Below, in pieces: positions 4,861-30,437 of a stretch of DNA of 64,000 nt. The DNA is from Rhodospirillaceae bacterium (GTDB lineage: Bacteria > Pseudomonadota > Alphaproteobacteria > MPNO01 > UBA2964): the NCBI GenBank assembly GCA_002709075.1, contig PAPV01000005.1:153989-217988 (forward strand). Reading direction: 5' to 3'. A program made the translations under genes and the position numbers. Position 1 is the first letter of the stretch. Every line of letters begins with the position of its first letter. A model generated the notes under the pieces. That model ran no database searches. It saw only the letters and a list, made by a program, of their open reading frames with translations, and had not been told where the DNA came from.

Positions 4861-6285
4861 TCATGGTAGATCTTTAAACCATTTTGAACGGATACGATCA
4901 TCCAATTCTTTTGATGACCTGGCTACAATTGGAAATGTCTCTTTTCGTCTAAACGGTCGGCACGCATCGATGACTGCGCGTGAATTGCGTCGATCAGTCT
5001 CATCATCATAACACATGGGATCAAGATGTGTACTCCAACATCCATTGATTATGTCTATGTCTTCCCGTAAATCTACACGTGTTGACATCGCCCATATCAC
5101 CTCATTGATATTTGAAGGGTCGATATCATCATCAACAACAATAGTCCACCGATTCGCATAAGCTCCGGCGTGACACTGTGAGGCAATGAGACCTGCTTGT
5201 TTTGCGTGCCCGCCGTACATTTGTTTTATAGAAACTGTAAGCCAAAAACGGCTGCCACCAGCTTCGTGCGCCCACACACCTTTTACTTCCGGAATCCCCG
5301 CTGCTTCCAACTGGCTCCATACTGCACCGCAGCGATAGATACCCAAATAAAAGGTATTATCGTTTGGGGGAACCGCCGGAATTGCTCCGACGAGTATAGG
5401 ATTGTCACGATGCATCAGGGTTTCAACTCTTATAGCTGGCTCAGGCCTACTCCCTCCAGCATAATACCCCGTCCATTCACCCAAGGGGCCTTCTTGAATT
5501 GTATCGTCTGGGTCTATAAAACCCTCAAAGGCTATTTCCGCATTAGCTGGCACCGGAAGGCTAGTCCTCGGCATGTTAAATATTTCAATTGGCTCTCCTA
5601 AAATTCCACCAGCTGCCTCATATTCACTTTTTCCGTAAGGAACCTCCAACCCGGCTAACATAAAAAGGGCTGGATGCATGCCTGCGACCACCGCAACAGG
5701 GCAGGATTCGCCTCTCTCGTGATACTTTTCCATCATCAGCCTACAGTGCTTTCCGGGCGACATCATTACACTTGCGGTTTTAGGGTTATGAGCTTGAACG
5801 CGGTACGCACCATAATTTATCCACCCTGTGTCAGGGTCTTTCATGACAACCATACAAGCTGTTCCAATGAATGCTCCTCCATCGTGTTCGTGCCAAACTG
5901 GAGTCGGGATTGAGGTTATGTCGACTTTTTCTCCCTCTGTAATATTCTCTAAAAGAGGTCCGCCATTTACAGCTTTTGGTGTTTCAATAGGGCCGTCTCG
6001 CATGTAGTCGCGCCACCAGCCAATTAATTCATTGATTGACGCCTCTGGTTTTAACCCCAATGCCACGTTTATACGTGGAATTGAAGTTAGGATATTTGCC
6101 AGAACGCGATGCCCTTCGGGAAATCCGGGGACTTGATCAAACATAACGGCCGCTGTTCCCATTGTGCGCATGTAAATGTCTACAATACCGCCTATTTCCT
6201 CTGTGGGTTCAGCACCTTTGATGGTTTTTAATTCGCCTATAGAGTCTATCGCCTCTATCCAATTGCGTAAATCTTTGTTGGCCAC
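4861..6285 (-). CDS. UbiD-family (prenyl-FMN dependent) decarboxylase, paralogue 1
   Basis: A 474-residue member of the UbiD family, which reversibly decarboxylates aromatic, heteroaromatic or alpha,beta-unsaturated acids using prenylated FMN made by UbiX. The catalytic set is present: Arg in 'NYGAYRVQ' (about residue 162) and the two glutamates of 'EGPLGEWTGYY' (about 265 and 270), matching the R-E-E triad of fungal Fdc1. I chose GTG 6285 because GAGAG lies 7 nt upstream and the family normally starts near 'KDLRNWI'; the open frame runs to 6345. It is transcribed divergently from molybdenum hydroxylase operon 1, suggesting a shared pathway on a (hetero)aromatic acid. Paralogues lie at 26602 and 32208. 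Confidence 0.9.
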   Translation of the reverse strand: MANKDLRNWIEAIDSIGELKTIKGAEPTEEIGGIVDIYMRTMGTAAVMFDQVPGFPEGHRVLANILTSIPRINVALGLKPEASINELIGWWRDYMRDGPIETPKAVNGGPLLENITEGEKVDITSIPTPVWHEHDGGAFIGTACMVVMKDPDTGWINYGAYRVQAHNPKTASVMMSPGKHCRLMMEKYHERGESCPVAVVAGMHPALFMLAGLEVPYGKSEYEAAGGILGEPIEIFNMPRTSLPVPANAEIAFEGFIDPDDTIQEGPLGEWTGYYAGGSRPEPAIRVETLMHRDNPILVGAIPAVPPNDNTFYLGIYRCGAVWSQLEAAGIPEVKGVWAHEAGGSRFWLTVSIKQMYGGHAKQAGLIASQCHAGAYANRWTIVVDDDIDPSNINEVIWAMSTRVDLREDIDIINGCWSTHLDPMCYDDETDRRNSRAVIDACRPFRRKETFPIVARSSKELDDRIRSKWFKDLP

Positions 6286-6350
6286 ACCTTTTCTCTCGCG
6301 TTTAAAAAACTTACATTCTAGGTCATTGCATTTTTCGACAAACACAAAGG

Positions 6351-6457: not shown

Positions 6458-7327
6458 TTGAAAGCAGCGAAATTTAAATATATACGCCCAAGTTCTTTAG
6501 ATGAGGCTATTAATTTGTTGTCAGATTTTGGCGAGGAAGCCCGTATTTTAGCTGGAGGTCAGAGCCTCTTGCCAACACTCAATATGCGTCTCTCTCAACC
6601 AAAAGTTTTGATTGATATAAATAGGTTGGATGAACTCCAAGGTATATCACATGAAGGCAAGCACATTCGTATTGGTGCATTGACAAGGCATGTGGATATT
6701 GCGGAGTCTGACCTGATTACAGAAAATATTCCACTCATATCAGAAGCCATAGAATATGTGGCGCATGTTGCTGTCCGAAATCGGGGCACTTTCGGAGGGT
6801 CTGTTGCCCTAGCTGACCCAGCAGCAGAAATGCCTGCATGCACCCTAGCTCTTCAAGGAACATTGGTTGTTGAAGGTCCAAATGGTCGAAGGCAGATTCG
6901 TGCTGACGATTTTTTTCACGATCTTTACGAGACTGCACGCGCTCCAGAGGAAATTCTTGTCGAAGTTCAACTACCGATAAGAAGATCTGGGGAGAGTTTT
7001 GCTTTTATGGAGTTATCTAGGCGCAAGGGCGATTATGCAATGGCAGGATTAGCTTGCAAAGCAACTTTTCAAGATAACAGATTCCTATCCGTACGTCTTG
7101 TTTATTTTGGCACTGAGCTAAAACCAACCCTTGGTGAAAATGTTATGTCACAGCTCGAAGGGAGAGAGTGGTCAGAGACTCTGGCAGAAAAGGTAATAGC
7201 TTCGCTAGAAGATGACCTTGATCCAGTTGATAACCTACAAGGAAGTGCGGCGATGAAATTGCACCTTCAAAAAGTGCTAACCAAGAGGACGTTGGCCGAA
7301 GTGGTGCAGAGATTAGGAAACGTTTAA
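6458..7327 (+). CDS. Molybdenum hydroxylase 1, FAD-binding medium subunit (CoxM/XdhB type)
   Basis: A 289-residue FAD subunit of the xanthine dehydrogenase/CO dehydrogenase family. It passes electrons from the iron-sulfur subunit to an acceptor. The FAD-binding motifs 'ILAGGQSLLPTLNMR' (about residues 30-45) and 'AVRNRGTFGGSVALADPAAEMP' (about 105-127) are clear, and the C-terminal CO_deh_flav_C domain follows. The length matches three-subunit enzymes; there is no 4Fe-4S insertion as in 4-hydroxybenzoyl-CoA reductase HcrB. It starts with TTG after GGAGG (6441-6445) with a rather long 12-nt spacing. It is first of three tightly packed genes; its stop overlaps the next start by 1 nt. Confidence 0.92.
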   Translation: MKAAKFKYIRPSSLDEAINLLSDFGEEARILAGGQSLLPTLNMRLSQPKVLIDINRLDELQGISHEGKHIRIGALTRHVDIAESDLITENIPLISEAIEYVAHVAVRNRGTFGGSVALADPAAEMPACTLALQGTLVVEGPNGRRQIRADDFFHDLYETARAPEEILVEVQLPIRRSGESFAFMELSRRKGDYAMAGLACKATFQDNRFLSVRLVYFGTELKPTLGENVMSQLEGREWSETLAEKVIASLEDDLDPVDNLQGSAAMKLHLQKVLTKRTLAEVVQRLGNV

Positions 7328-7818
7328 TGGCTTACGATTTCTTGGACATCAAGTTAATTGTTAATGGGGAACAGGTTTCAGCAAGGGTCCCGGCTCGCAT
7401 GCATCTTGTTGATTTTCTTCGAATGGAATTAGAACTGACAGGCTCACATCTTGGATGTGAGCATGGTATCTGTGGTGCTTGCTCAGTACGGGTTGACGGT
7501 GTTGTCGTACGTGGCTGTCTGGTGTTGGCTGCCCAATGTGATGGGTCAGATGTTTTGACAATAGAGGGGTTAAGCGAGAGCAAAGAAGTTGTTGACCTCC
7601 AAAATACATTTGTTGAACGGAACGCAATGCAGTGTGGTTTTTGCACACCAGGTATGCTTATGACAGCAGCCGAGTTGCTCGCTAAAAACGATAAGATGGC
7701 TAGAAATGAAATAAGGGAATTTATGTCTGGTAATTTTTGTCGATGCACTGGTTACCATGCAATAATTGATGCTATTGAAATAACTATGGAAGCCCGCAGA
7801 GAGGAAGAAAGGTCGTGA
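7327..7818 (+). CDS. Molybdenum hydroxylase 1, [2Fe-2S] small subunit (CoxS type)
   Basis: A 163-residue iron-sulfur subunit. The plant-ferredoxin-type cluster is held by Cys44, Cys49, Cys52 and Cys64 (motif CEHGICGAC...C), and the second cluster by Cys103/Cys106 (QCGFCTPG) and Cys138/Cys140 (FCRCTGYH). It relays electrons from the molybdenum site to FAD. It sits in TAATG overlap with the upstream FAD gene and in GTGA overlap with the downstream molybdenum subunit gene, so the three are one transcriptional and translational unit in the order M-S-L. Confidence 0.95.
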   Translation: MAYDFLDIKLIVNGEQVSARVPARMHLVDFLRMELELTGSHLGCEHGICGACSVRVDGVVVRGCLVLAAQCDGSDVLTIEGLSESKEVVDLQNTFVERNAMQCGFCTPGMLMTAAELLAKNDKMARNEIREFMSGNFCRCTGYHAIIDAIEITMEARREEERS

Positions 7819-10202
7819 AGAGTAAAGGCGCGATAACACCGTTGGATCGGCAACATTCTTATGTAGGGCGTAATTTATCTAGAGATAAAGCAAAGCGCGC
7901 GGTTAACGGACGCGGCCGTTACACGGATGATATAACATTGCCTCGAACTGTTCATGCAGCTTTCGTTCGTAGTCCATATGCACATGCAATGATTACTGAC
8001 ATAGATGTAGATATTGCTAAAGCTGAAGAGGGTGTTGTGTTAGTGATGACTGGCGCAGAATTAAAGGAATTGTGCACGGGGCCCTGGGTTGGGACATTGT
8101 CTGTGTTCCCCACAATGAAAACTGCACCGCAATACCCAATGGCTGTCGACCGGGCATGCTGGCAGGGTGAACCGGTGGTGATGGTGGTGGCAAATAGCCG
8201 AGCGGCTGCGGAGGATGCTGCGGAGTTGGTATCGATAACCTACAAAGAACTTCCGGTTGTTGCCCACAAGGAAACAGCGTTGGAAAAAAATTCGAATTTA
8301 GTGCATCCCGATCTTAAGGATAATTTGGCGTATGAGAAAGTTATTGATACTGGTGATGTTGGCGAAGCCTTTGCTGGGGCAGATCACGTAGTTGAAGCGA
8401 CTTTTGATTTTGGTCGCCACACGGCGGTTAGTCTTGAACCACGTGCAATTTTAGCATCCTTTGAAAAAGATACCGAAGAATTAACAATTTACACTAGCAG
8501 TCAAACACCACATATGTTTCAGGCTATTATTGCGCGCACTTTAGGTTTGCCGGAACACAAATGTAGAGTGGTAGCCCCTTTCGTAGGCGGTTCATTTGGA
8601 CTTAAAATTCATTCTTTTGGAGATGAATTTGCCGCCACAGCTGCATCACTAAAACTTGGTCGTCCCGTTAAATTCATTGCTGACCGGCTTGAATCTTTTT
8701 TAACCGACATTCATGCTAGAGAAAATACGGTAACAGGAAAAATGGCGGTATCCAGTCAGGGCAAGATAGAGGCTTTGGAAATAGATATTCTATCGGGAGT
8801 TGGAGCGTATTCGCAATACCCACGCACATCAGTGTTTGAAGCGAATCAGATTCTTAATATTACAGGTGGCCCTTACAAACATCAAAATTATAAAGCTCGA
8901 ATGCGGGTCGCTTACATGAATAAAGTTCCCACTAGTCAATACCGAGCAGTTGGTCATCCGATCGGAAATTCTGTTGGTGAAGCATTGGTTGATTTGGCTG
9001 CAGAGAAGATAGGTATGGACCCAGTAGAGATAAGACGACGGAATATCATGGAGGATAATTCATATCCCCGAACAACTGCATCGGGGATCGAAGTAGCAGA
9101 CATGTCTCATCAGAAATGCCTTGAAACATTAGTTGAGCGCATGAAATACGATGATCTAGTTCAAGAACGTAATTCTCTTCGAGCAGAGGGAATATTTCGC
9201 GGTATAGGTATTGCAGCTTTTATAAAAGGGACGGCTCCGGGACCAGCTGGATACTACGGTGCTGGAGGTGCGCCTATAGCTAGTCAAGATGCTGCAACCG
9301 TAAAGATAGAACCTTCAGGGAATATAATTTGTGCGGTGGGGGTTACAGATCAAGGGCAAGGCGTTGATACAGTTATGCAGCAAATTACCGCCGGAGCAGT
9401 TGGTGTGTTACCTGAGATGGTAAGGGTTATAGAGGGAGATACTGACGCAACCCCTTACGGGGGCGGCACCTATGCGTCACGTGCAACAGCAATTGGAGGT
9501 GAAGCCACCTACCAAGCGGCATTGGCGTTGCGGGCTGAGTTGCTTAGGCTTGCGGGAGCGCTTTTGCAGAGGGAACCCGAAACACTCGATATTATCGATG
9601 GCAATGTAGTGGACCTAGGAACAGAAAATATTCGTATGCCCCTTGCGGAAATTGGACGTATTGGTCATTTTCAGGTGGCCGAGCTACCAAACGATATTCA
9701 ACCACAACTATCACATACAAAAAGGTTCCGTCTAAATGATGCTCTATATATATTTACTAATGGCATACATGGTGCCTATGTTGAAGTCGATTGTGATACT
9801 GGATTTATAACACTTCTAAAACAATGGGTTGTGGAGGATTGTGGACGGGTAATAAACCCAATATTAGCCGATGAGCAAGTGCGAGGAGGAAGCGTTCAAG
9901 GGATAGGTGGTGCCCTATATGAACATTGTATTTATGACGACCAAGCTCAGTTACTTAATGGAAGCTTAATTGATTATTTGGTTCCAATGGCTTCGGAGAT
10001 GCCGGATATAGACGTAGCCCACGTTCAAACACATACTGGTGTTTCAGAATTAGGCTCAAAAGGGGTTGGAGAGTCAGGAACAGGCGCATCCCCCGCGGTT
10101 GTAATGAATGCGGTGAATGATGCGATAAGTCCATTTGAAGCAAAAGTTACGGTTCAGCCAATGACCCCAGATGTTCTTCTTAAAGCGCTAAATAGGATTT
10201 GA
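7815..10202 (+). CDS. Molybdenum hydroxylase 1, molybdopterin-binding large subunit
   Basis: A 795-residue catalytic subunit of the aldehyde oxidase/xanthine dehydrogenase large-subunit family. An N-terminal hammerhead domain ('VGRNLSRDKAKRAVNGRGRYTDD') is followed by cofactor-binding loops such as 'PFVGGSFGLK' and 'SQYRAVGHP', and the catalytic base Glu753 in 'KGVGESGTGA'. The CO-dehydrogenase loop AYRCSFR is absent, so this is a hydroxylase, not a CO dehydrogenase. It should oxidise a C-H next to a ring nitrogen or an aldehyde in the cytoplasm; the substrate cannot be read from sequence. It starts with GTG overlapping the small-subunit stop by 4 nt. Confidence 0.92.
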   Translation: MKSKGAITPLDRQHSYVGRNLSRDKAKRAVNGRGRYTDDITLPRTVHAAFVRSPYAHAMITDIDVDIAKAEEGVVLVMTGAELKELCTGPWVGTLSVFPTMKTAPQYPMAVDRACWQGEPVVMVVANSRAAAEDAAELVSITYKELPVVAHKETALEKNSNLVHPDLKDNLAYEKVIDTGDVGEAFAGADHVVEATFDFGRHTAVSLEPRAILASFEKDTEELTIYTSSQTPHMFQAIIARTLGLPEHKCRVVAPFVGGSFGLKIHSFGDEFAATAASLKLGRPVKFIADRLESFLTDIHARENTVTGKMAVSSQGKIEALEIDILSGVGAYSQYPRTSVFEANQILNITGGPYKHQNYKARMRVAYMNKVPTSQYRAVGHPIGNSVGEALVDLAAEKIGMDPVEIRRRNIMEDNSYPRTTASGIEVADMSHQKCLETLVERMKYDDLVQERNSLRAEGIFRGIGIAAFIKGTAPGPAGYYGAGGAPIASQDAATVKIEPSGNIICAVGVTDQGQGVDTVMQQITAGAVGVLPEMVRVIEGDTDATPYGGGTYASRATAIGGEATYQAALALRAELLRLAGALLQREPETLDIIDGNVVDLGTENIRMPLAEIGRIGHFQVAELPNDIQPQLSHTKRFRLNDALYIFTNGIHGAYVEVDCDTGFITLLKQWVVEDCGRVINPILADEQVRGGSVQGIGGALYEHCIYDDQAQLLNGSLIDYLVPMASEMPDIDVAHVQTHTGVSELGSKGVGESGTGASPAVVMNAVNDAISPFEAKVTVQPMTPDVLLKALNRI

Positions 10203-10827: not shown

Positions 10828-11601
10828 ATGGATCTGGGACTAAAAGGAAAACGTGCACTTGTAATAGGCTCAACAAGTGGTTTAGGCGAAGGAATTTTAA
10901 GGCGCTTGGCGGCAGAAGGTGCTTTAGTCGCAGCTACTGGTCGGTCAACCAGAAAGGCTTTAAGAATTACGGCTGAACTTGCGGGGAGTAGGCCTTACAA
11001 GCTTGATTTACGCGATGAAAAATCTGTAGAAGATGCTATTGAAGCATTACAAAATGACTTTGGTGGTTTGGATATAATCGTTTGTAATAGTGGAGGACCT
11101 CCATCAGGGGCAATAATATCAATTGACCCAGAAGTATGGTATTCCCAATTCGAAATAATGTTCGTTAATCAACTGCGTATTGTAAATAACTTCCTGCCAA
11201 GTATGCGGAACCAAGGTTGGGGAAGAATTCTTATAGTAACTTCCTCAGGTGTTAAGCAACCAATTCCTAATTTGGGGATTTCCAATTCAATTCGTGGAGC
11301 TCAACTCGGTTGGGGAAAGACGCTAGCAAATGAAGTGGCGCAAGATGGGGTTACGGTAAATTTTTGCGCCCCAGGCCGAATTCAAACTGCAAGAGTCGAT
11401 GAACTGGATCTAGAGAATGCAAAAAAACAAAATAAGACTGTTGAAGAAATTCGTACGGCCAGTCGCGCTGGTATTCCAGTAGGTCGCTATGGAACAGTAA
11501 ACGAGTTCGCTGATGCGGCTGTTTTTCTTTTATCAAGTAACGCCAGTTATATAACCGGTTCTGTTATGCAGGTTGATGGTGGTTTAATAAGAGGTTTTTA
11601 A
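10828..11601 (+). CDS. Short-chain dehydrogenase/reductase
   Basis: A 257-residue classical SDR. The Rossmann nucleotide site is 'IGSTSGLGEGI' (TGxxxGxG variant), with 'CNSGGPPSG' replacing the usual NNAG. In place of the usual catalytic YxxxK, the expected site reads 'NSIRGAQLGWGKTLANEV': Ser is seen in 'TSSGVKQP', but the Tyr is not in its normal spot. This is the pattern of the divergent FabG-like group in which a GGP motif replaces NAG. The C-terminus has 'SYITGSVMQVDGGLIRGF', typical of SDRs. It probably reduces or oxidises a pathway intermediate; the missing canonical Tyr makes the reaction uncertain. Confidence 0.85.
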   Translation: MDLGLKGKRALVIGSTSGLGEGILRRLAAEGALVAATGRSTRKALRITAELAGSRPYKLDLRDEKSVEDAIEALQNDFGGLDIIVCNSGGPPSGAIISIDPEVWYSQFEIMFVNQLRIVNNFLPSMRNQGWGRILIVTSSGVKQPIPNLGISNSIRGAQLGWGKTLANEVAQDGVTVNFCAPGRIQTARVDELDLENAKKQNKTVEEIRTASRAGIPVGRYGTVNEFADAAVFLLSSNASYITGSVMQVDGGLIRGF

Positions 11602-11820: not shown

Positions 11821-13017
11821 ATGAAAACTGCGGTTGTAAATATTGGGGATATTATTACCGGGGATTGGAAAAATCCTAGAGCAGTTGGTGACACCATTTT
11901 GATGGTGGATGGGAAGATTGTTTCCGTAGGTTCTGATCCTTTACAAGGAGTAACTGATTGTGATGTAGTGATTGATGCTGATGGGGCTACTGCGGTTCCA
12001 GGTTTTATTGACTCACAAATTCATAACACTTTCGGAGACTATACACCACGTCAGAAAACAGTAGGATTTTTGGAGTCATACGTTCACGGAGGCACCACAA
12101 CCGGGATAACTGCCTGCGAAGTACATGTCACCGGCCGACCTACGGACCCTGAGGGGGTAAAAGCGCTGGCAATTGCGGCAAACAAAAGTTTTAAGAGTTG
12201 GCGCCCTGGAGGTATGCGGTTTTGGGCTGGGTCTGTTATCCTCGAGCCAGGCCTTATCAAGGATGATTTTAAGGAATTATCTTCCAAAGGAGTTTGGCTT
12301 GCCAAAGCGGGTTTTGGTGGAGTGAACACACCATATGATTACGTACCGATGGTTAAGTGGGCACGGGAGCACGGGATGATAACAACAGTACATACTGGAG
12401 GTGGATCGATACCCGGTTCTTCTGGGATATGGGCGGATCATTTGTTGGCGATGCAACCGCATGTTTCATTCCATGTTAATGGAGGGCCTACAGCAATGCC
12501 GGATGAGGATTTTCCTCGGCTTGTTGAGGAAAGTGATATTGCTCTTCAGGTTTGCACTGCAGGAAACTTACGTACTCTTCTGATGACTGCAGAGTTGATA
12601 ATGAATGCCAATCAATTTGATCGTTTTCTAATTGCAACTGACACGCCCACTGGATCGGGCATCATGCCATTAGGAATGATGTATACGATAACTCATCTAG
12701 CAAGTCTTACTGATATACCAGTAGAATATGCTATTGCTGCAGCCACGGGAAATAACGCTCGGATTTACAATCTTAATTGCGGCTTTTTGCGTGTCGGTTG
12801 CGATGCAGATTTGCTTTTGCTTGATGCTTGTGTTGGTTCCTCAAAAGATAATGCCCTTGACGGGTTGCGCAATGGAGACATAGTTGCTGTTGCAGCCGTG
12901 GTTACAGACTCAGTTCCGAGATTTGTAGGGCAAAGCCGAAATACACCTGCCGCTAAGAAAAATATTCGGGTCGTTGAATGTCATCTGCCGATGGACTTCT
13001 CCGGCTCAGACTATTAG
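11821..13017 (+). CDS. Enamidase-like amidohydrolase
   Basis: A 398-residue amidohydrolase whose whole length resembles the enamidase of nicotinate-fermenting Eubacterium barkeri as I recall it; that enzyme hydrolyses 1,4,5,6-tetrahydro-6-oxonicotinate. Shared stretches include 'DYTPRQKTVGF', 'GRPTDPEGVKALAI', 'HTGGGSIPGSS' (His191), 'HVNGGPTA' (His218), 'ATDTPTGSGIMPLGM' (Asp274) and the C-terminal 'SRNTPAAKK'. Oddly, the HxH motif of the metal site reads 'DSQIH', with Gln66 replacing the first His and His68 kept; Lys162 lies where the bridging ligand is expected. It may therefore bind a single metal or act on a different cyclic amide. ATG start after CGGAG. It is followed 10 nt later by the broken gene. 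Confidence 0.8.
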   Translation: MKTAVVNIGDIITGDWKNPRAVGDTILMVDGKIVSVGSDPLQGVTDCDVVIDADGATAVPGFIDSQIHNTFGDYTPRQKTVGFLESYVHGGTTTGITACEVHVTGRPTDPEGVKALAIAANKSFKSWRPGGMRFWAGSVILEPGLIKDDFKELSSKGVWLAKAGFGGVNTPYDYVPMVKWAREHGMITTVHTGGGSIPGSSGIWADHLLAMQPHVSFHVNGGPTAMPDEDFPRLVEESDIALQVCTAGNLRTLLMTAELIMNANQFDRFLIATDTPTGSGIMPLGMMYTITHLASLTDIPVEYAIAAATGNNARIYNLNCGFLRVGCDADLLLLDACVGSSKDNALDGLRNGDIVAVAAVVTDSVPRFVGQSRNTPAAKKNIRVVECHLPMDFSGSDY

Positions 13018-13027
13018 GGAGATCGAA

Positions 13028-13954
13028 ATGCGTATTGCGTCTGTAGATCTTATAAGCAACACCTGTTTTCCGGCGTTGACAGCGGATGCCTTGGGATTTT
13101 TTGAGCAAGAAGGGGTGGAAGTCGAAATTTCATTAGTTGCGGCTTTGGGTGCCACTAAGGCTTTAAAAAATAATTCTGTAGATGCAATGATAGCAGGTTC
13201 TGTTCACGATGTGCTCACCGAATTTGATCATTGGTAGGGAGCTAGTATTTGCGTTGCACTTAGCCAGGGAACACCGTGGCTTTTGACCATGCGCAAAGAA
13301 TTTGAGGCCGAGCGCGGTGACTTTCTATCTCTCAAAGATTGTACCCTTACGGCGGCAGAGGGACCAGATTTAGCATTTAAACAAGTTTTGCAGACTGGTG
13401 GTATTGATCCCAACCAAGACGTTAAAATTATTGAGTTGCCGGGAGCTAAATCAGAAAATGTCTCCTTTGGTGTATTTGCAGCTGAAAAATTAGCGAGTGG
13501 GTGTGTCGATGGTTTTTGGGCCAATGCAATCGGAGCAGAAAAGGCGATTGCATCAGGTTTAGGCAAGCTATATTTGGATGTGCGTAGAGGCGACGATCCT
13601 GGTTTTACTAGGTATTTTAGCTTTGCTGGACTTGTTGTACGAGATGATTTTATAGAAAGAGAGGGTAACCAAGTTGACGCTGCGGTTCGTGCCATTATTC
13701 GGGCGCAGTCGGCATTGAGAAGGGACCCCATGCTGGCCACAAGAATAGGGGAAAAAAAGTTTCCAAAAGATACGGCAAAGCTGATCAGCAACGTTATTTC
13801 GCGTGATGTCGAATTTTATGATCCATTTATCTCAAAGGAGTGTGTCAGACACCTAAACAATTTTGCCCGATCAATTGGACATATTAGATATGACGTTACG
13901 TATGATGAGGTTGTTTCGTTGAAACATAAACCTCTTTGGATTAAGGATTTGTGA
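13028..13954 (+). pseudogene. NMT1/THI5-like (ABC substrate-binding fold) gene interrupted by an in-frame TAG
   Basis: Reading from ATG 13028 (AGGGAGA just upstream), 69 codons are followed by TAG at 13235-13237, after which the same frame stays open for 238 more codons to the stop at 13952. The two parts make one periplasmic-binding-protein-like fold: N-terminal 'FPALTADALGFFEQEGVEVEI' typical of NMT1/THI5 proteins, then 'ALSQGTPWLLTMRKEF' and the rest. There is no frameshift and no other damage, so the break is a single nonsense codon: recent, a sequencing error, or read through. No signal peptide is visible, so it may be cytoplasmic rather than a true uptake protein. It directly follows the enamidase-like gene. 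Confidence 0.8.
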
Positions 13955-14017: not shown

Positions 14018-14707
14018 TTAATACTGCTGTATTTCTTTTAAATATTTTAATACGTCTTTGAGTTTCATTACATCGGCGTATTTATGGTGCATGTCAAATA
14101 GATTTACCTTATGATTTATCGGAGTTCTATCATAACAGCATTCCTCTACCAAAGTTATATGAAATCCATTTGCCTTGGCATCCTGCACCCCAGCGCGAAG
14201 ACAGCCCGACGTAGTCCCCCCCCCAATAATGAGGCTCTGAACTCCGAGAGTGATAAGATGAGACATCAACGGAGTGCCGTAAAAACAACTTGCACGCTGT
14301 TTGTATATAATTAGGTCGTCGGCTTGAGGTGCCAGCTCCGGCAGGATTTCATATGCATTATCTGATTGGGTCATATTAACTCTGTTTGTAGGTCTTCCTC
14401 GTTCTGCTCTACTTCTCGCATCTCCTGTAGAATAAATTATTGGTAGACCGGCTGCGCGGGCCGCTCTAAGTAATTGTTTTCCAGGTTCAACCATAGCCCA
14501 TGCCCGTTCACCGCAGGAACTAGGATGATCTTTAATAACGTCTAATACAGGTTGTTGACCTCCATCGTAGCTAGCCTGGTAAACATCAATCATTAAAATT
14601 GCTGGTTTGGGTCCAATCTTTAGTGGGCGCTGATAAGCGCCGTAAATTTTTAGGGTTTCCTCATCAATAATGTCTTTCCAGCAGTAGTCTTCAAATGTTT
14701 CTGTCAT
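14018..14707 (-). CDS. Isochorismatase-family cysteine hydrolase (amidase)
   Basis: A 229-residue cysteine hydrolase with the catalytic triad Asp41 ('LMIDVYQ'), Lys136 ('IIYKQRASCF') and Cys169 ('GGGTTSGCLRAG'), the last preceded by the usual cis-peptide region. Relatives include N-carbamoylsarcosine amidase, nicotinamidase and maleamate amidohydrolase (NicF), which release ammonia from amides. Beside an enamidase-like gene and molybdenum hydroxylases, an open-chain amide such as a maleamate-type intermediate is a plausible substrate, but this is inference. ATG start with AAAGGA 8 nt upstream. It is transcribed toward the broken gene and divergently from the MFS gene. Confidence 0.85.
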   Translation of the reverse strand: MTETFEDYCWKDIIDEETLKIYGAYQRPLKIGPKPAILMIDVYQASYDGGQQPVLDVIKDHPSSCGERAWAMVEPGKQLLRAARAAGLPIIYSTGDARSRAERGRPTNRVNMTQSDNAYEILPELAPQADDLIIYKQRASCFYGTPLMSHLITLGVQSLIIGGGTTSGCLRAGVQDAKANGFHITLVEECCYDRTPINHKVNLFDMHHKYADVMKLKDVLKYLKEIQQY

Positions 14708-16592: not shown

Positions 16593-17450
16593 ATGAAACC
16601 TGCTAGTTTTAATTATCATTCCCCCTCCACTCTAGAAGAGGCAATCACACTACTCGCTCGTTTCGCGGAAGACGATGGTAGAATACTTGCAGGTGGTCAG
16701 AGCCTCACACCGACTATGGCTTTTCGTCTCGCTCGACCCGGTCATTTAATAGATATAAATAACATTGAGGATATTAAAGCTGTTTTAGTCAAAAAGGATA
16801 AACTTGTAATTGGAGCAGGCGTTCGTCATGCGAAATTCCATGAGCCAGTTTGTGATGGTCCCCTAGGTCTTCTCCTCTCACGGGTGGTAGAAAATATTGC
16901 ACACTTGCCTATTCGCTTACGAGGAACATTCTGCGGTTCTCTTGCTCATGCAGATCCTGCGTCTGAATGGTGTGCTGTAGCCGCAACACTGGATGCTAAA
17001 CTTATAGCAAAAAGTACATCTGGTGAAAGGGAAATAGAGGCTCAGGATTTTTTTGAGACCGTAATGACTACCGCATTAAAAGAGAACGAAATGTTGGTAG
17101 AAGTCCATCTTCCTCTGTTGCCGACAAATACAAAATTCGGATTCGAAGAATTCAGCCGTAGGGCTGGTGATTTTGCCTTGACTATGGCGTTGGTTGTTTG
17201 GGAGGAAAATGGAGGAAAAATAAAAAATGCTAGAATTGGCCTTGGTGGGGTAGAAGATCGTCCGCGCCGAATTCTAGCGGCTGAGGAAATCTTAAACAAT
17301 GCCGTGCCGTCTGATGAAGTGTTTCGAAAAGCTGCTGAAATTGCGGCCGATAATGTTGATCCAATAGAAGACCATGCCACTCCAGCCAATTACCGACGCG
17401 ATTTAGTTAAGGCTCTGACTCGGCGAGCTTGTGAACAAGCGAGTATGTGA
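16593..17450 (+). CDS. Molybdenum hydroxylase 2, FAD-binding medium subunit
   Basis: A 285-residue FAD subunit of the CoxM/XdhB family. FAD motifs are 'ILAGGQSLTPTMAFR' and 'PIRLRGTFCGSLAHADPASEW'. It shares the domain plan of the gene at 6458 but is clearly not a recent copy. It begins with ATG after AAGGA. Its TGA stop overlaps the start of the iron-sulfur gene, so operon 2 has the same M-S-L order as operon 1. Confidence 0.92.
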   Translation: MKPASFNYHSPSTLEEAITLLARFAEDDGRILAGGQSLTPTMAFRLARPGHLIDINNIEDIKAVLVKKDKLVIGAGVRHAKFHEPVCDGPLGLLLSRVVENIAHLPIRLRGTFCGSLAHADPASEWCAVAATLDAKLIAKSTSGEREIEAQDFFETVMTTALKENEMLVEVHLPLLPTNTKFGFEEFSRRAGDFALTMALVVWEENGGKIKNARIGLGGVEDRPRRILAAEEILNNAVPSDEVFRKAAEIAADNVDPIEDHATPANYRRDLVKALTRRACEQASM

Positions 17451-17926
17451 TGGAAAAACATGATATTAAACTTACTATTAATGGAAAGGTTTACGACGTA
17501 TCTGTCGAGCCGAGGCGCACCTTAGTCGATGTAATACGAGATCAATGCGGTCAAACCGGTACACACAGTGGTTGTGAACATGGTGTTTGTGGTGCCTGCA
17601 CTGTTTTGCTAGACGGGGATCCAGTTAGATCCTGCCTGATGTTTGGTGTGCAAGCTAACGGGAAAGAAATTCGAACGGTTGAAGGACTGGCTGAAGGAAA
17701 AAATTTGCATCCATTGCAGCAGGCATTTACAGATAACCATGCATTACAATGTGGTTATTGTACACCGGGATTTTTAATGTTGGCAGCAGGCGTGCTCGAG
17801 AAAAACCCAGATATTAGTGACGAGGAATTGGTTGACGCACTTTCTTCGAATTTATGCCGCTGCACCGGCTATGCCAATATTATTACGGCAGTAAAAGCTG
17901 CGGCGGAACAAATGCGAGCTGGCTGA
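17447..17926 (+). CDS. Molybdenum hydroxylase 2, [2Fe-2S] small subunit
   Basis: A 159-residue iron-sulfur subunit with cluster ligands Cys43, Cys48, Cys51 and Cys63 (CEHGVCGAC...C) and the second set in 'QCGYCTPG' and 'LCRCTGYA'. It starts at GTG 17447 or the adjoining ATG 17450; both overlap the stop of the FAD gene. It overlaps the large-subunit start by 1 nt. Its role is electron transfer from molybdopterin to FAD. Confidence 0.95.
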   Translation: MMEKHDIKLTINGKVYDVSVEPRRTLVDVIRDQCGQTGTHSGCEHGVCGACTVLLDGDPVRSCLMFGVQANGKEIRTVEGLAEGKNLHPLQQAFTDNHALQCGYCTPGFLMLAAGVLEKNPDISDEELVDALSSNLCRCTGYANIITAVKAAAEQMRAG

Positions 17927-20250
17927 TGGCCACCGCGAAGAAGCGGATTCTCGGGCGGCGGCTCAGACGCTTGGAGGACCCGCCTCTTATAAATGGTAAA
18001 GGTCGATTTGCGGATGATATTAATTTTCCGCACCAACTGCATATGCGCATCCTTCGAAGCCCATATGCACATGCAGAACTTATATCTGTCGACAAGACAG
18101 AAGCATTAAAGGTCCCTGGTGTAGTTGATGTATGGGAGTACAAAGACATCGCAGATCTCGGCCCTATCGACTTTCGTGCAGATAAATCCGCGGAGGAATT
18201 GAAGGCATTTCGCCAATATTGCTTAGCAAAAGACAGAGTCCGCTATGTTGGTGACCCTATCGCTGCTGTATTTGCCGAGGATCCTTACATTGCAGAGGAC
18301 GCAGTTGAATTCATAACAATCAATGCGGATCCGCTTCCGGTCATCTCAAGTGCTGATCAAGAACCGGGAGAGTTTAAGCCAGGTTTGAGTTCAGAAGCTG
18401 GACTTTTGACACACTCTTTTGGTGAAACTGAACGTCCTTTTGAAGATGCCTATTTAGTTGTTGAAGTTGATCTGCGTACTGGCAGGCATTCCGGAGTTCC
18501 AATGGAAACTCGTGGTGCAATAGGAGTTCACAATAAAGCTTCAGACGTCTTAGAATTGTATGGAGCTGCAAAAATTCCGCACCGTAATCGTGATACTTTG
18601 GTAAGAATGCTAAACCGAGCCCCTGCGAAAATACATCTTCATGAGGGACATACGGGTGGGGGATTTGGTATTAGAGGTGAACTTTACCCTGAGGATGTTC
18701 TTGTTCTTTTGGCTGCTGAACGTCTAGGACGCCCTGTAAAATGGATAGAAGACAGACAGGAGCATATGATGGCAGCAAATCAGGGTCGAAACCAACATCA
18801 TATGGCTCAAATGGCATTTGATAAGGATGGCAAAATTCTTGGTATGAAAGACGAGTTCTGGCATGACCAGGGCGCTTATGTTCGTACTCATGGAGCCAAC
18901 GTTCCAAATCGAACGATGTGTATGCTGACAGGGGCGTATAGAGTTCCTTCCTTTAGAGCTAAATGTCATTTTCGTTTGACTAACAAGACTCCTGCGGCCA
19001 CCTATCGCGCCCCAGGAAGGTTTGAGTCGACTTTTGTACGTGAGCGCATGATGGACATCGCCGCAGATAGATTTGGAATTGATCGAATTGAAATCCGGCG
19101 ACGAAACCTTATCGGTGCAGATGAGATGCCCTTTAAAATTAGTTTTGACGAACCAGGTTTAGAGGCGCTCATTTTTGACTCAGGCGACTATTTGACGCTT
19201 TTGGACAAGGCATTAGACCACTTTCAATGGGAAGCTCTTGAAACGAGTTTGGCTAAACGCCGTCTAAATGGTGAACTTGTAGGTTGTGGATTGGGGATTT
19301 TTGTTGAAGAAAGCGGAAAAGGACCAGTCGACGGGGCTCGAATATCTGTTGACAACAATGGTGATATTGAAGTCCTGACTGGTGGCGCATCTGTTGGACA
19401 AGGATTCGAGACTACTATGGGTCAAATAACAGCTGAAGCGCTTGGTGCCGATTACAATAAAATAACGGTTATACACGGTCAGACCGACAGAATTCCATAC
19501 GGTATAGGAGCCCATGCGGCGCGGGCGACTGTGATGACTGGAAGTGCCGTGAATATTACGGCGCAGAAAGTTAAAGAAAAAGCGTTGGATGTTGCATCCG
19601 AGATGCTTCAAATGCCAGCTGACACCCTCGAAATCGAAAATAGTGTTGTCTTTGTAGCCGAAAATCCTTCTGGGCCTACTGTTTCCTTGGCTGAGATAGC
19701 TAAACGGTTGGCTCCTGGGTCTAGAGACCTTGGTGGAAGAGAGCCAAATCTTTCCGCGGAAGGTTTTCATAACACTTCTGAAAGTGCATTTCCATATGGA
19801 GTCCATTTTGCAGTTGTAAAAATTGATCCTGATACCGGTCACGTAAAGGTTGAAAGGTTTATGGTAGGTTATGATGTCGGTTGTGTTGTTAACCAGATGT
19901 TGCTTGAAGGTCAGTTAGTTGGCGGTTGTGTCCAAGGGATAGGAGGCGCTCTTTTCGAAGAGTTCTCTTATTCTGAGGAAGGAGAGCCACTGGCTGTTAC
20001 GCTTGCTGACTATCTTTTGCCAACTATGGATTGTGCGCCGAAGGTGGAATGCATGGTCACTGAGGATGCACCAAGCCCTACGAATTTGCTTGGGTTAAAA
20101 GGTGGTGGAGAAGGTGGCATTAACGGAGTAGCTGCGGCAATTGCCGGAGCAATAGATAATGCAATAGGAAAAGTGGGCGCGGTGACCCAATTGCCTGTTA
20201 CACCACAGCGCATGAAACAAATACTTTATGAAATTGGGTTAGGAGAGTGA
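17926..20250 (+). CDS. Molybdenum hydroxylase 2, molybdopterin-binding large subunit
   Basis: A 774-residue catalytic subunit. The N-terminal hammerhead domain begins near 'ILGRRLRRLEDPPLINGKGRFADD'; cofactor loops include 'GHTGGGFGIRGEL' and 'ATYRAPGRFE', and the catalytic Glu729 is in 'GGGEGGING'. The CO-dehydrogenase Cys loop is absent. The frame is open upstream to 17854, but ATG 17926, overlapping the small-subunit stop, is the natural start. The 'RAPGR' loop and 'GEGG' differ from 'RAVGH' and 'GESG' in hydroxylase 1, so the two enzymes probably take different substrates or successive intermediates. The next gene begins 1 nt after its stop. Confidence 0.92.
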   Translation: MATAKKRILGRRLRRLEDPPLINGKGRFADDINFPHQLHMRILRSPYAHAELISVDKTEALKVPGVVDVWEYKDIADLGPIDFRADKSAEELKAFRQYCLAKDRVRYVGDPIAAVFAEDPYIAEDAVEFITINADPLPVISSADQEPGEFKPGLSSEAGLLTHSFGETERPFEDAYLVVEVDLRTGRHSGVPMETRGAIGVHNKASDVLELYGAAKIPHRNRDTLVRMLNRAPAKIHLHEGHTGGGFGIRGELYPEDVLVLLAAERLGRPVKWIEDRQEHMMAANQGRNQHHMAQMAFDKDGKILGMKDEFWHDQGAYVRTHGANVPNRTMCMLTGAYRVPSFRAKCHFRLTNKTPAATYRAPGRFESTFVRERMMDIAADRFGIDRIEIRRRNLIGADEMPFKISFDEPGLEALIFDSGDYLTLLDKALDHFQWEALETSLAKRRLNGELVGCGLGIFVEESGKGPVDGARISVDNNGDIEVLTGGASVGQGFETTMGQITAEALGADYNKITVIHGQTDRIPYGIGAHAARATVMTGSAVNITAQKVKEKALDVASEMLQMPADTLEIENSVVFVAENPSGPTVSLAEIAKRLAPGSRDLGGREPNLSAEGFHNTSESAFPYGVHFAVVKIDPDTGHVKVERFMVGYDVGCVVNQMLLEGQLVGGCVQGIGGALFEEFSYSEEGEPLAVTLADYLLPTMDCAPKVECMVTEDAPSPTNLLGLKGGGEGGINGVAAAIAGAIDNAIGKVGAVTQLPVTPQRMKQILYEIGLGE

Positions 20251-26601: not shown

Positions 26602-28113
26602 TTATTGATTCGACAATTTATCTACGGATAAATGTTGGGGTGGTTTGCCAGGTAAGTTCAACTCTTTCCAACGGGAAACAACACGCTCATATATAGTATC
26701 TCTAATCTTTGTACGCACAGGGAAATCTTCATAGTATTGGTGTGGGATACAAGCATCTATTAAAGCTTTTGATCCATAAGGTCTATCTTTTGAAATTACC
26801 CGACTTGGGTCTAGTCCGGTTGACCAAGTTTTTCTCTGGATATCAATATCGTCGATTGGGTTGCAGCGGGTACTCATAGCCCACAAGACTTGGTTCATGT
26901 CTGTTGGGTTAACGTCATGGTCTACGGCCACAATCCATTTTGTATAGTAGGCGGCAGCAGGACACTGCGCTGTTGCAGCCAAAACTTGTGCGGTGTGTCC
27001 CGCATATTGTTGACGAGTTGCAACAACAACGTGCCCCCACCCGGACGCAGCAGCCGGATGGGAGTATACTCCTTCAATACCTGGTATACCCAATCGTTCC
27101 AGATCATCCCAAATTGCTGCTGAACGCATAATAGAATAATACGATCCAATTTCGCATGCGGGATAATCTGCCATTAAGGCTGCTGTATGAATTGGCTTAT
27201 GTCGCATGTGTAAGGCTTTTACCTCTATAACAGGTTGTAAAGATTTTTCACGTCCATAGTATCCGGTAAATTCACCCAGAGGTCCCTCAGGGAGCAGATG
27301 TTTCTTAGATACTATTCCCTCAATTACAATTTCCGCGCGAGCTGGTATAGGGAGATTGGTAACACATCCCTTGGTAAGTTCCATGGCTTGTCCCGTTAGA
27401 CCACCTATAATCTCGAGTTCGGATATATTGTTTGGATAAGATTGGGCAGCGACCATAAAAGATGCTGGGTCTATGCCGTAAGCAGCAACTACCTCGCAAT
27501 CTTTGCCTTTGTTCCACCAAGCTTCTCGGTCAAGCAAGCCATGTTTTCCGGGAGAACAATACATGCCAATATGACGCTTGTCGTGAACCATTTGACGATA
27601 ACATCCAACATTTATTCGGCCGGATTCAGGATCTTGGGTAAAAGTTATATCTCCAGTTCCGATATAATCGCCACCATCTCTCGGCCAGAATCGCGGTGCA
27701 GGTAGCTTTGTTATATCAATGTCATCACCTAACAAAACGATTTCATTAACTGGCGCTGTTGTCTCATCTATAAACTTTGGTGGAATACGTAGTTTGGAAC
27801 GACTGCGTGTGGCCTTTATAAGGTCGGTAATTGACAAATCCGGGTCAAGGCCAACTGCAAGAGCATACCGCCGAGTACTTGATCCTAGCATATTAGAGAG
27901 GATTGATGTATTGCCATCTGTACCATTGATGTTATCAAACAAAAGGGCAGGTGCCCCCTCGGATTGTGCCGCCATATAGGTCGCGGCGGCGAGCTCTTCA
28001 TGCGCTGAAACAGGCGCAGTAACCCGATGGAGTTGCCCATCTTGATCAATTAAAGAGATCCATTCCCTTAAATCAGCTGGCCCACGCTGGTTGTCTTTTT
28101 GTAGATTTTGCAT
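26602..28113 (-). CDS. UbiD-family decarboxylase, paralogue 2
   Basis: A 503-residue UbiD-type enzyme. The catalytic residues expected for prenyl-FMN decarboxylases are present: Arg in 'NVGCYRQM' and the two Glu of 'EGPLGEFTGYY'. It also has 'RFWPRDGGDYIGTGD' near the metal/prFMN site. It is closer in motif to paralogue 1 than to paralogue 3. Its substrate is unknown. It has no tight operon partner; a 710-nt gap separates it from the divergent FAD monooxygenase gene. Confidence 0.9.
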   Translation of the reverse strand: MQNLQKDNQRGPADLREWISLIDQDGQLHRVTAPVSAHEELAAATYMAAQSEGAPALLFDNINGTDGNTSILSNMLGSSTRRYALAVGLDPDLSITDLIKATRSRSKLRIPPKFIDETTAPVNEIVLLGDDIDITKLPAPRFWPRDGGDYIGTGDITFTQDPESGRINVGCYRQMVHDKRHIGMYCSPGKHGLLDREAWWNKGKDCEVVAAYGIDPASFMVAAQSYPNNISELEIIGGLTGQAMELTKGCVTNLPIPARAEIVIEGIVSKKHLLPEGPLGEFTGYYGREKSLQPVIEVKALHMRHKPIHTAALMADYPACEIGSYYSIMRSAAIWDDLERLGIPGIEGVYSHPAAASGWGHVVVATRQQYAGHTAQVLAATAQCPAAAYYTKWIVAVDHDVNPTDMNQVLWAMSTRCNPIDDIDIQRKTWSTGLDPSRVISKDRPYGSKALIDACIPHQYYEDFPVRTKIRDTIYERVVSRWKELNLPGKPPQHLSVDKLSNQ

Positions 28114-28823
28114 GTAGATTTCAAGTTTTGTAATTTTTCATTCATTATTAACTCAAGTAGACTGCCATGAACCCTTTTAATAGGCAAAGGAAATGCTAAA
28201 CTGGATCAAGCAACTAACACATTTTGAAAAGAAGGTCTGCTGAATGCCATGATTTTTGAGTTCTGTTGGGGTGCACTCAGGTGACATTATAAAAAGGTAA
28301 AAGATTGACGACTTGTTTGGATTTTATCTTTCTCAATGCCGAACTAAATTAAACAGTTATGGTATCTATGCAAAATTTTTTGATAAATTGAAGCCCTGAG
28401 TATCAATTACAGGTTGGAGGTTCAGGTATAAGCATCCTTTATTATTGTGATATTAATTCGCCTTTAATTAATAAATGTTTTAGGTTAGGAAATTAGCAGA
28501 ATTGCAAATCAAATTGGAAAGTGAGAACATACATTTACCAAAGTATAGCTGGCATACTGCCAAAATCTTAAAATTTGTAAAAAACAATTTTTTAGTAGGA
28601 TTGGCAAAAAATGAACTGAATTCCTTATTTAAAAGACACTTTAAAAGGAATTTTCTGTGTAAAAATCGACATCTTAAGCTTCAATTAGTTGGTTTTCAGA
28701 ATCACAATAAAAAAAATATACTATCGGTATATTTAAAATCCAGAAATTGCTAATGGGTGACTATAGAGTTGGTTTGTAAAAATTCATTGTGACTTGTAAT
28801 TTTTGTTCGAGGAGATTTTAATT
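28114..28823 (+). other. 710-nt gap without a convincing gene
   Basis: AT-rich DNA between divergent UbiD paralogue 2 and the FAD monooxygenase. An 83-codon TTG-initiated frame (28502-28753) is present but is Lys/Asn/Leu-rich with no recognisable domain or good ribosome-binding site. Promoters for both flanking genes must lie here. No RNA gene or strong hairpin was found. It could be the remains of a lost gene. Confidence 0.4.
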
Positions 28824-30437
28824 TTGAAAACTAGGGTTCTTATAGTTGGTGCAGGGCCGGTCGGACTAACCCTTGCGATTGACCTAGGGCAGCGAGGTGT
28901 TGATTGTGTTCTGATTGAACAAAAAAAAGAACCCGAGCTGCAACCTAAGATGGAACGCTGTAATGCTCGTACAATGGAAATATATCGACGGATGGGGTTG
29001 GAGAAAAAGATTAGAGCCGCCGGACTTCCTTCAAATATACCTATGGATGTTTTTATAATTACAACACTTGATAAGCCGCCAATATTAACGCTGCCCTATC
29101 CTTCGGTTGATGAGGCAAGATCAAAAGACTCTGAAAAAAATGATGGATCCACACCATTAGAACCATACCAGCTAATTTCTCAATATACACTTGAACCTCT
29201 GTTAAAAAATGAGGCAGAAAAACTTGCTTCCGTACGTGTTTGTTATGGACATAAATTTCTTTCATTCGAACAAAACGAAGATAATGTAACCGCAGAAATA
29301 GTTAATTCCGCTGGGAAGACTACACATGTAACTTCGGATTTTTTAGTGGGATGTGATGGAGGAAGTAGTAATGTAAGAAAACAAACGGGAATTTCTCTTC
29401 GTGGTGAAGGAAATATTTCAGAGCTCGGACAAGGACTATTTTACTGTGAAGACTTATTTGGGAAGCTTCCACTTGGGAATGGGCCTGGCCAAGGAAGGCA
29501 CTACCATGTTGCGGATGACAAAGCTACTTTTTTAATCATGCAAGATAGCACCAAGCATTTTACATTACACTCTAAAGTCAAAGATGAAGACGGTATAAAA
29601 GAAATGTTTGAAAAAACAGTATCTGTGCCGATTAATTACGAGTTGTTGAGTTTTAATATGTGGCGTCAGAACTTATTGCTCGCTGACAGTTATCGCAAAA
29701 AAAGGGTATTTCTAGCTGGTGATGCTGTACATTTGGTTATCCCAACTGGTGGACTAGGAATGAATACTGGGATTGGTGATGCAATAAATCTCGGCTGGAA
29801 ACTTGCGGCAGTAATTCAAGGTTGGGGTGGAGATAATTTGTTAAATTCATACGATGTTGAACGTCATCAGGTTGGAGACCGAAATGTTGGTGCATCTCGA
29901 TACGCATCACTGGGCAGAAGAAGCTGGCGTGCATTAGGAGGAGATTGTTTATTTAGAGAGGGACACGCTGCAGACGCAGCCAGAGACAGATTGAAGTCTC
30001 GTGCAGATGTTGAACAGCGAAAAACAAATGAAATGCTCGGCGCAGAATTGGGTTATAGATATGTTAGGTCACCAATAATTGCAGAAAAGCCCGGGGGACC
30101 TGAGCATTTGTTTAGACAGTATATTCCCACTGCCTGGCCTGGGGCCAGGTTGCCTCACATTACTCTTGAAAATGGTAAAGCTTTGCAGGATTGTCTGCCA
30201 GATGGATACACTATGTTGTGTTTGTCTAATAAAACTTGGGATAATCGGGATCTAGTAAGAGCATTTGAAGCTTTAAGTGCACCTTTTTCTTGTGTAAGAC
30301 TTTCCTCGAATATTGCAAGAGAGGTTTACAATGCTGATTTTCTTTTGATTCGGCCAGATTTGCATGTGGTTTGGCGTGGTCATGAGCCTCATTCCTCCCC
30401 GACAGTTTTAGCGATGTTGGCGACGGGTCATTGTTAA
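28824..30437 (+). CDS. FAD-dependent aromatic-ring monooxygenase
   Basis: A 537-residue flavoprotein hydroxylase of the PHBH/phenol hydroxylase (FAD_binding_3) type. It has the dinucleotide motif 'VLIVGAGPVGLTLAIDLG' at the N-terminus, the 'VGCDGGSSNVRK' DG motif in the middle and the GD motif 'VFLAGDAVHLVIPTGGLGMNTG'. A C-terminal thioredoxin-like extension (from about residue 440) is seen in the longer members such as MhpA. It inserts one oxygen atom into an aromatic ring with NAD(P)H. I chose TTG 28824, which has GAGGAG 9 nt upstream; the frame is open to 28803. It is convergent with the GMC gene. Confidence 0.9.
   Translation: MKTRVLIVGAGPVGLTLAIDLGQRGVDCVLIEQKKEPELQPKMERCNARTMEIYRRMGLEKKIRAAGLPSNIPMDVFIITTLDKPPILTLPYPSVDEARSKDSEKNDGSTPLEPYQLISQYTLEPLLKNEAEKLASVRVCYGHKFLSFEQNEDNVTAEIVNSAGKTTHVTSDFLVGCDGGSSNVRKQTGISLRGEGNISELGQGLFYCEDLFGKLPLGNGPGQGRHYHVADDKATFLIMQDSTKHFTLHSKVKDEDGIKEMFEKTVSVPINYELLSFNMWRQNLLLADSYRKKRVFLAGDAVHLVIPTGGLGMNTGIGDAINLGWKLAAVIQGWGGDNLLNSYDVERHQVGDRNVGASRYASLGRRSWRALGGDCLFREGHAADAARDRLKSRADVEQRKTNEMLGAELGYRYVRSPIIAEKPGGPEHLFRQYIPTAWPGARLPHITLENGKALQDCLPDGYTMLCLSNKTWDNRDLVRAFEALSAPFSCVRLSSNIAREVYNADFLLIRPDLHVVWRGHEPHSSPTVLAMLATGHC

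Follow-up and report, generated by a model that had tools for sequence, protein, structure and literature searches.

The gene described here lies within a window of 64,000 nucleotides (the whole stretch of DNA that was analysed) and encodes an amidohydrolase of the enamidase family, which we call Q-type and lysine-type after its residues Gln66 and Lys162. The gene and the main features of its surroundings are:

6458..10202, + strand: molybdenum hydroxylase operon A (FAD, 2Fe-2S and Mo subunits; Mo subunit nearest in the PDB to quinoline 2-oxidoreductase)
10828..11601, + strand: short-chain dehydrogenase
11821..13017, + strand: Q-type, lysine-type enamidase-family amidohydrolase (ATG start, 398 aa, intact frame)
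13028..13954, + strand: interrupted NMT1-like substrate-binding-protein gene, directly downstream of the amidohydrolase gene
14018..14707, - strand: isochorismatase-fold hydrolase (best PDB match 3ot4/3uao, a putative isochorismatase, then N-carbamoylsarcosine amidohydrolase)
16593..20250, + strand: molybdenum hydroxylase operon B (FAD, 2Fe-2S and Mo subunits; Mo subunit assigned by family match, the two small ones from ORF translations)
28803..30437, + strand: FAD_binding_3 (PF01494) monooxygenase, 16 kb off (34% identical over 99% to a neighbour of the Q-type gene in locus L009)
34718-36229: aldehyde dehydrogenase, 22 kb off

The first frame of the NMT1-like gene stops after 69 codons, and the Pfam match is found in a second ORF (13283-13954), in another frame; the two pieces would represent one former gene. 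The window also contains three genes of UbiD-family decarboxylases (4861-6345, 26602-28113 and 32208-33746), all within 30 kb. Together with the two molybdenum hydroxylase operons and the FAD monooxygenase, they probably constitute a region for the catabolism of aromatic compounds or N-heterocycles. No match to PF06684, HpaB, DUF4286 or 6-hydroxynicotinate reductase (hnr) was detected within the window at E 1e-5. The monooxygenase that usually neighbours genes of this type is absent beside the window copy, the nearest flavin monooxygenase being the one found 16 kb away. The idea that the window neighbours represent a pathway common to the family was rejected: with 22 other window genes, up to position 28.1 kb of the window, as queries (E 1e-20, 60% coverage), matches turned up in just two of the 48 Q loci and four of the seven H loci, all of them below 50% identity, and many of the tested loci are short.

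The first-pass annotation had described the product as an enamidase-like protein, and this assignment is borne out by sequence and predicted structure alike. Its nearest solved relative is the enamidase of E. barkeri (PDB 2VUN; phmmer, E 6.6e-97), with which it aligns over nearly its full length (residues 2-384 on residues 3-385 of 2VUN), and it matches the PF01979 profile with 48.5 bits (curated cut-off 25). An AF2 model built from a 34-row alignment (pLDDT 83.4, pTM 0.88) had 2VUN as its top Foldseek match (E 1.1e-40; 41% identity over 388 columns), and VIA-align superposed the two with a Z score of 48.1 (rmsd 2.3, 376 residues aligned). The next family in that comparison was isoaspartyl dipeptidase (Z 29.9), and NagA (2p50) scored 27.2. 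The model has the TIM-barrel fold of the superfamily, all 50 entries listed by VIA-align having a Z score of at least 25.8. The pLDDT falls below 50 at residues 72-88, 102-105 and 276-281, which form loops beside the predicted site. Most likely, the product is a functional amidohydrolase with a TIM barrel, a member of the enamidase family and, on sequence grounds, of a lysine-type subfamily within it.

Six codons of the gene correspond to the metal-ligand columns of the family:

12016..12018, + strand: Gln66 (CAA), replacing the first His of the HxH motif; aligned to H67 of 2VUN
12022..12024, + strand: His68 (CAT), second His of HxH; aligned to H69
12304..12306, + strand: Lys162 (AAA), at the position of the bridging ligand; aligned to E164
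12391..12393, + strand: His191; aligned to H193
12472..12474, + strand: His218; aligned to H220
12640..12642, + strand: Asp274; aligned to D276

In the alignment, Q66, H68, K162, H191, H218 and D274 thus face H67, H69, E164, H193, H220 and D276 of 2VUN, which we take to be its metal ligands. The window protein retains the equivalents of H69, H193, H220 and D276, with Gln in place of H67 and Lys in place of E164, and it reads Q-H-K-H-H-D instead of the H-H-E-H-H-D of enamidase. The stretch from Q66 to H68 is aligned without gaps, and one single-residue gap stands directly ahead of K162. The equivalence of Lys and Glu at this position holds because the lysine-type and the HHE proteins show matching local motifs: KAGFG or KFGFG in lysine-type relatives (KFIFF in the distant homologue L095), and EVGLG, EIGLG or EIGIS in HHE proteins. 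The later ligands His191, His218 and Asp274 are kept, in agreement with the annotation.

As regards the features of the superfamily, the HxH motif of strand 1 is replaced by QxH in the window protein and in all 69 rows with Gln66 and Lys162 examined below. The Lys or Glu, two His and Asp of the later positions are represented by K162, H191, H218 and D274, presumably in strand 4, strands 5 and 6, and strand 8, respectively. In the AF2 model the ligand-column residues are placed on or just behind barrel strands 62-71, 160-163, 187-191, 215-218 and 269-272. With the exception of Gln66, each of the six columns is occupied by a residue that serves as a ligand in this superfamily, and the set HHKHHD is that of ordinary lysine-bridged amidohydrolases.

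The annotation had suggested that the conservation of Gln66 and Lys162 be checked in homologues, and had named two outcomes that would speak against it: a His supplied by a shifted motif, or Gln66 as a singleton sequencing error. Neither occurred. A shifted HxH motif is ruled out, there being no displaced His in residues 60-76 of the window protein (PGFIDSQIHNTFGDYTP). In the genome_contigs set, Q was present at column 66 in 48 of 55 loci and H in the remaining 7, K was present at column 162 in all 55, and the second His of the motif (His68) was kept in the window protein and in 55/55. All 22 loci of related genomes (L057-L078; 56-75% identity, with L057 and L058 repeating L006 and L008) read QHKHHD. 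The 84-row set used for the tree comprised 69 distinct QHKHHD proteins (window protein included), eight HHKHHD proteins (including L095) and seven HHEHHD proteins. This fixation across dozens of loci also rules out sequencing error as the source of Gln66 and Lys162. Because they are fixed in dozens of related bacteria, both ligand swaps are real at the level of sequence.

The two changes are separable. HHKHHD was found in 15 relatives that are 47-69% identical to the window protein, among them four plasmid relatives (64-66% identity) and two relatives from Rhodococcus and Thermomicrobium (47-49%), and those homologues of approx. 40% identity that were read, 2VUN among them, are HHEHHD. From these alignments, the replacement of Glu by Lys defines the subfamily and that of His by Gln is an additional step within this subfamily; since the lysine is common to the H-type relatives, only Gln66 is odd among the ligands. 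Gln is encoded by CAA or CAG and His by CAC or CAT, so that the codons of the two types are one base apart. Column 66 alone separates Q (68/68) from H (15/15) proteins fully and the next-best column does so only partially, in a comparison limited to columns at which both Q blocks of the tree (see below) agree and differ from the H rows. Genes of either type appear to be rare, because strict DNA patterns, which miss variants, matched few of the 398 genomes of the phylum: one for the Q motif (the window's own genome) and two for the H version (both HHKHHD). Culturable carriers of the lysine-type gene include Pigmentiphaga kullae K24 (L030) and Altererythrobacter segetis YJ20 (L014).

In the tree, the Q rows form two blocks, of 49 (including the window protein) and 20. 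Three loci in which the tblastn stretch crossed a stop (L080, L090 and L094) and repeat proteins were kept out of the tree, and L095, with 35% identity and a very long branch, was dropped from later trees and counts. The resulting 83-row tree, calculated with column 66 masked, still needed two changes of the Q label. With 48 rows and the same column masked, a single Q clade was rejected by the AU test (p 0.017; lnL 36.7 lower), and the well-supported branches of the 48-row tree, taken alone, force only one change of the label. The AU test and the 84- and 83-row trees point to two or more replacements of His by Gln, or to a single one combined with a reversal; support for this is moderate, and the trees contain long branches.

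Ten pairs of Q-type genes gave omega values of 0.006-0.074 (two pairs with dS > 1), and the comparison of the window protein with that of L001 (78% identity) gave a pN of 0.142 vs a pS of 0.815, with saturated synonymous sites. The low omega values of the ten pairs make a degenerate enzyme unlikely; they argue for strong purifying selection on the Q-type genes, not for decay.

We also compared the gene neighbourhoods of the three ligand types, using loci flanked by 4 kb or more on each side and a reach of 8 kb (37 loci with Gln66 and Lys162, QK; 11 with His and Lys, HK; and 10 with His and Glu, HE). L092, which repeats L006, was excluded along with L095, and near-copies were retained if they had flanks of the required length. 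Neighbour counts were taken from tblastn, clusterings of neighbours having been set aside because some antisense frames had been taken as genes. PF06684 was found in 36/37 QK, 10/11 HK and 7/10 HE loci (46 of the 48 lysine-type loci), and it lies within 300 bases of the amidohydrolase gene in 31/37 QK and 9/11 HK loci. It is thus a near-constant neighbour of the amidohydrolases, whichever of the three ligand sets they have (53 of the 58 counted loci). A role of PF06684 in amino-acid metabolism has been proposed from its fold and gene neighbours (PMC2954203). The family name, which refers to amino acid synthesis, probably misleads.

An oxygenase (PF01494-type flavin monooxygenase, HpaB, or Rieske protein at 30% identity or more) occurs within 8 kb in 27/37 QK, 8/11 HK and 0/10 HE loci. 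This amounts to 35 of 48 lysine-type loci, with none in the other 13 (Fisher p 2.2e-5 vs HE, which overstates independence, the loci being related). The PF01494 monooxygenase is placed within 300 bases in 16/37 QK and 3/11 HK loci. In contrast, hnr is present in none of the 48 lysine-type loci and in five of the 10 HHE loci (p 5.5e-5, only a guide for related loci), and no hnr cluster surrounds the window gene. An aldehyde dehydrogenase resembling succinate-semialdehyde dehydrogenase, in some loci only 28-38% identical, was found in 9/37 QK, 5/11 HK and 0/10 HE loci.

Two annotated plasmids illustrate these contexts. That of Mariluticola (L102) encodes DUF4286, PF06684, an H-type amidohydrolase, a FAD-dependent monooxygenase and a succinate-semialdehyde dehydrogenase. 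The PDB proteins nearest to its monooxygenase are PnpA and HspB (6-hydroxy-3-succinoylpyridine monooxygenase), and no ring-cleaving dioxygenase is named in the annotated stretch. The Comamonadaceae plasmid carries two PF06684 genes, UPF0280, 6-hydroxynicotinate reductase and an HHE amidohydrolase; HHE genes lie in hnr-type clusters in L090, L096, L099 and L101.

The earlier interpretation stands in part: the site is altered and the gene context differs, and the mononuclear or carbamylated-lysine site suggested by the annotation would be a hypothetical form of it. A different reaction or substrate is favoured indirectly, because the lysine-type genes adjoin oxygenases and not 6-hydroxynicotinate reductase. 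That the H-type and Q-type genes have much the same neighbours argues against Gln66 alone defining a new reaction. The ligand swaps probably mark a different step in the breakdown of nitrogen-containing ring compounds.

In its own genome, the Q-type window gene is the sole enamidase homologue, and no HHE enamidase was found there. Another contig of this genome, C14 (45145-55561, corresponding to L088:7146-17562), contains two PF06684 genes together with hnr-like, UPF0280, molybdenum hydroxylase and HyuA/HyuB-like genes, these neighbours being named by eye from sequence; the hnr and UPF0280 assignments are borne out by the annotated Comamonadaceae plasmid. No HHE enamidase was found in this cluster, unlike those of L096, L099 and L101. 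In its own genome the window enzyme may stand in for enamidase; its pathway may be that of C14, or another one in which it works with the surrounding molybdenum hydroxylases. The gene hnr is present in the genomes of 24 of 30 relatives. Eight other genomes of the window's family (G003-G010) carry the Q-type gene plus one or more homologues at 35-40% identity, and in G004-G009 a homologue at 37-40% identity lies 5-18 kb from hnr on a common contig, with the Q-type gene elsewhere, an arrangement that disfavours a simple replacement of enamidase. The two second genes that were read, both of G005, are HHEHHD (L094) and HHKHHD (L095).

We consider it about an even chance that the enzyme is a hydrolase of an enamide intermediate in the aerobic breakdown of N-heterocycles, with a weakened alpha-metal site. 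It would cleave the C-N bond of an enamide, with either a lactam-type ring or an acyl-aminomethylene acid as the substrate, after attack on an N-heteroaromatic acid by an oxygenase or a molybdenum hydroxylase. PF06684, the usual partner, would probably act in the next step, and succinate semialdehyde would be a likely end product in some clusters. In the active site, Lys162 may be carboxylated and bridge two metals when both are bound, and Gln66 would weaken or empty the alpha site. With this site empty, a single metal on His191, His218 and Lys162 might carry out catalysis, or Lys162 might have some other role under one metal. Weighing against this reading are the missing PF06684 and monooxygenase neighbours of the window copy and the 13 lysine-type loci in which no oxygenase lies within 8 kb. 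The chemistry of vitamin B6 breakdown and a report on TgnF are compatible with an enamide hydrolase that acts ahead of a semialdehyde dehydrogenase. In vitamin B6 breakdown, (E)-2-(acetamidomethylene)succinate is converted to succinic semialdehyde, ammonia, acetate and CO2 by a serine hydrolase, an enzyme of another fold than the amidohydrolases (PMC3538738). TgnF of Acinetobacter baylyi, a homologue of the PF06684 protein HcdD, stimulates succinate-semialdehyde oxidation, as told in PMC7913881, whose authors report no such stimulation for HcdD.

It is unlikely that the protein is an ordinary enamidase, acting on 6-oxo-1,4,5,6-tetrahydronicotinate for the C14 hnr cluster and tolerating Gln66 and Lys162. 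The 41% identity that Foldseek gave for it and 2VUN, its status as sole homologue in a genome with an hnr cluster, and the presence of HHE genes in that kind of cluster in other genomes would all be consistent with this role. The genomes G003-G010, however, have a 35-40% homologue besides the Q-type gene, in G004-G009 it is that homologue and not the Q-type gene which lies near hnr, and hnr is missing from all 48 lysine-type loci. Loss of catalysis, with the protein kept as a relic or scaffold, is very improbable: the interrupted gene downstream and the separation of the window copy from its usual PF06684 partner point in this direction, but the 398-aa frame is intact, five ligand columns are retained, and the pN and pS values against L001 speak of constraint.

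KpiC of Arthrobacter IN13, which opens 3,4-dihydroxypyridine with a gain of 32 Da, is an amidohydrolase-family protein, clustered with a PF01494 monooxygenase and by its paper only 28% identical to E. barkeri enamidase (PMC7356986). It shares the Amidohydrolase-1 family, a relationship to enamidase and the monooxygenase in its cluster with the window protein's family. The window protein could likewise be a single-metal, O2-dependent ring-cleaving dioxygenase on an amidohydrolase barrel, acting after a flavin monooxygenase. The close PF01494 monooxygenase in 16/37 QK and 3/11 HK loci, and the ring-opening step of L102, which has no obvious owner, agree with such a role. Against it, H-type relatives with the full set of six ligands have the same neighbours, a separate cupin-like protein is encoded in several Q loci, and the flavin enzyme could open the ring by itself; we regard this activity as highly doubtful. 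A broader proposal, which is speculative and decidedly unlikely, makes the lysine-type subfamily, above all its QxH members, one-metal (iron or zinc) ring-opening enzymes of aerobic N-heterocycle catabolism. Gln66 would empty the alpha site, a metal on His191, His218 and Lys162 would bind the hydroxylated ring, the opening would be oxidative, as in KpiC, or hydrolytic, and PF06684 would handle the unstable product. If true, this would add to the cases in which a hydrolase fold has given up a metal site for ring opening, with His changed to Gln twice. NicX is a hydrolase fold with one metal site lost and with ring-opening chemistry (PMC7356986).

A search of titles and abstract openings, with most subscription journals outside its scope, listed nothing on enamidases of the QxH or the lysine type. 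E. coli-type NagA offers an inexact parallel to an enamide hydrolase with a weakened alpha site: the first His of HxH is Gln in both proteins and they have a common superfamily fold, but NagA is a separate family by sequence and has Asn as the second residue (QxN) where the window protein keeps His (QxH). The bridging residue of NagA is Glu, compared with Lys162. E. coli NagA, with QxN instead of HxH, is described as binding one metal, at the beta site (PMC3880350). A QxN mutant of the binuclear mycobacterial NagA was folded and less stable and had lost most of its efficiency, with some activity left (Km up 7-fold; kcat/Km 0.3 vs 12.3) (PMC6016474). The lysine-bridged binuclear amidohydrolases, e.g. 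isoaspartyl dipeptidase (the next-best fold after 2VUN) and dihydroorotase, share with the window protein a Lys at the bridging position. They keep HxH, unlike the window protein. For the dihydroorotases, an intact HxH is recorded in PMC3880350.

The homologues described here form a natural series, from HHE (enamidase) through HHK to QHK, whose members differ at one or two metal ligands. As the change from His to Gln occurs in an otherwise similar background, the role of the alpha metal in this superfamily can be tested by a one-residue swap. The gene contexts connect the poorly understood PF06684 not with the synthesis of amino acids but with hydrolases of the enamidase type that take part in N-heterocycle breakdown, and the lysine-type amidohydrolase genes mark a set of uncharacterised aerobic catabolic clusters.

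Several smaller observations were made. HyuA- and HyuB-like genes and the Q-type amidohydrolase gene lie in close succession in L010 (4082-9774) and L045 (4082-9068). The order in L010 is HyuA, HyuB, Q-type amidohydrolase, PF06684, and the arrangement in these loci suggests that HyuAB acts in a common pathway with the amidohydrolase. A conserved protein of approx. 190 aa is encoded near the Q-type gene in L001 (7400-7972), L003, L009, L014 and L020; it shows only weak similarity to cupins (best E 4e-4), and neither of the two members compared with Pfam gave a match. The distant homologue in L095 (9841-10962; 35% identity, HHKHHD, very long branch) lies between two molybdenum hydroxylase genes. 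Finally, the titles of the L009, L016 and L048 contigs, which present them as MAGs of Klebsiella pneumoniae or Bordetella parapertussis, are probably wrong, the Q-type genes on these contigs grouping with environmental proteobacteria.
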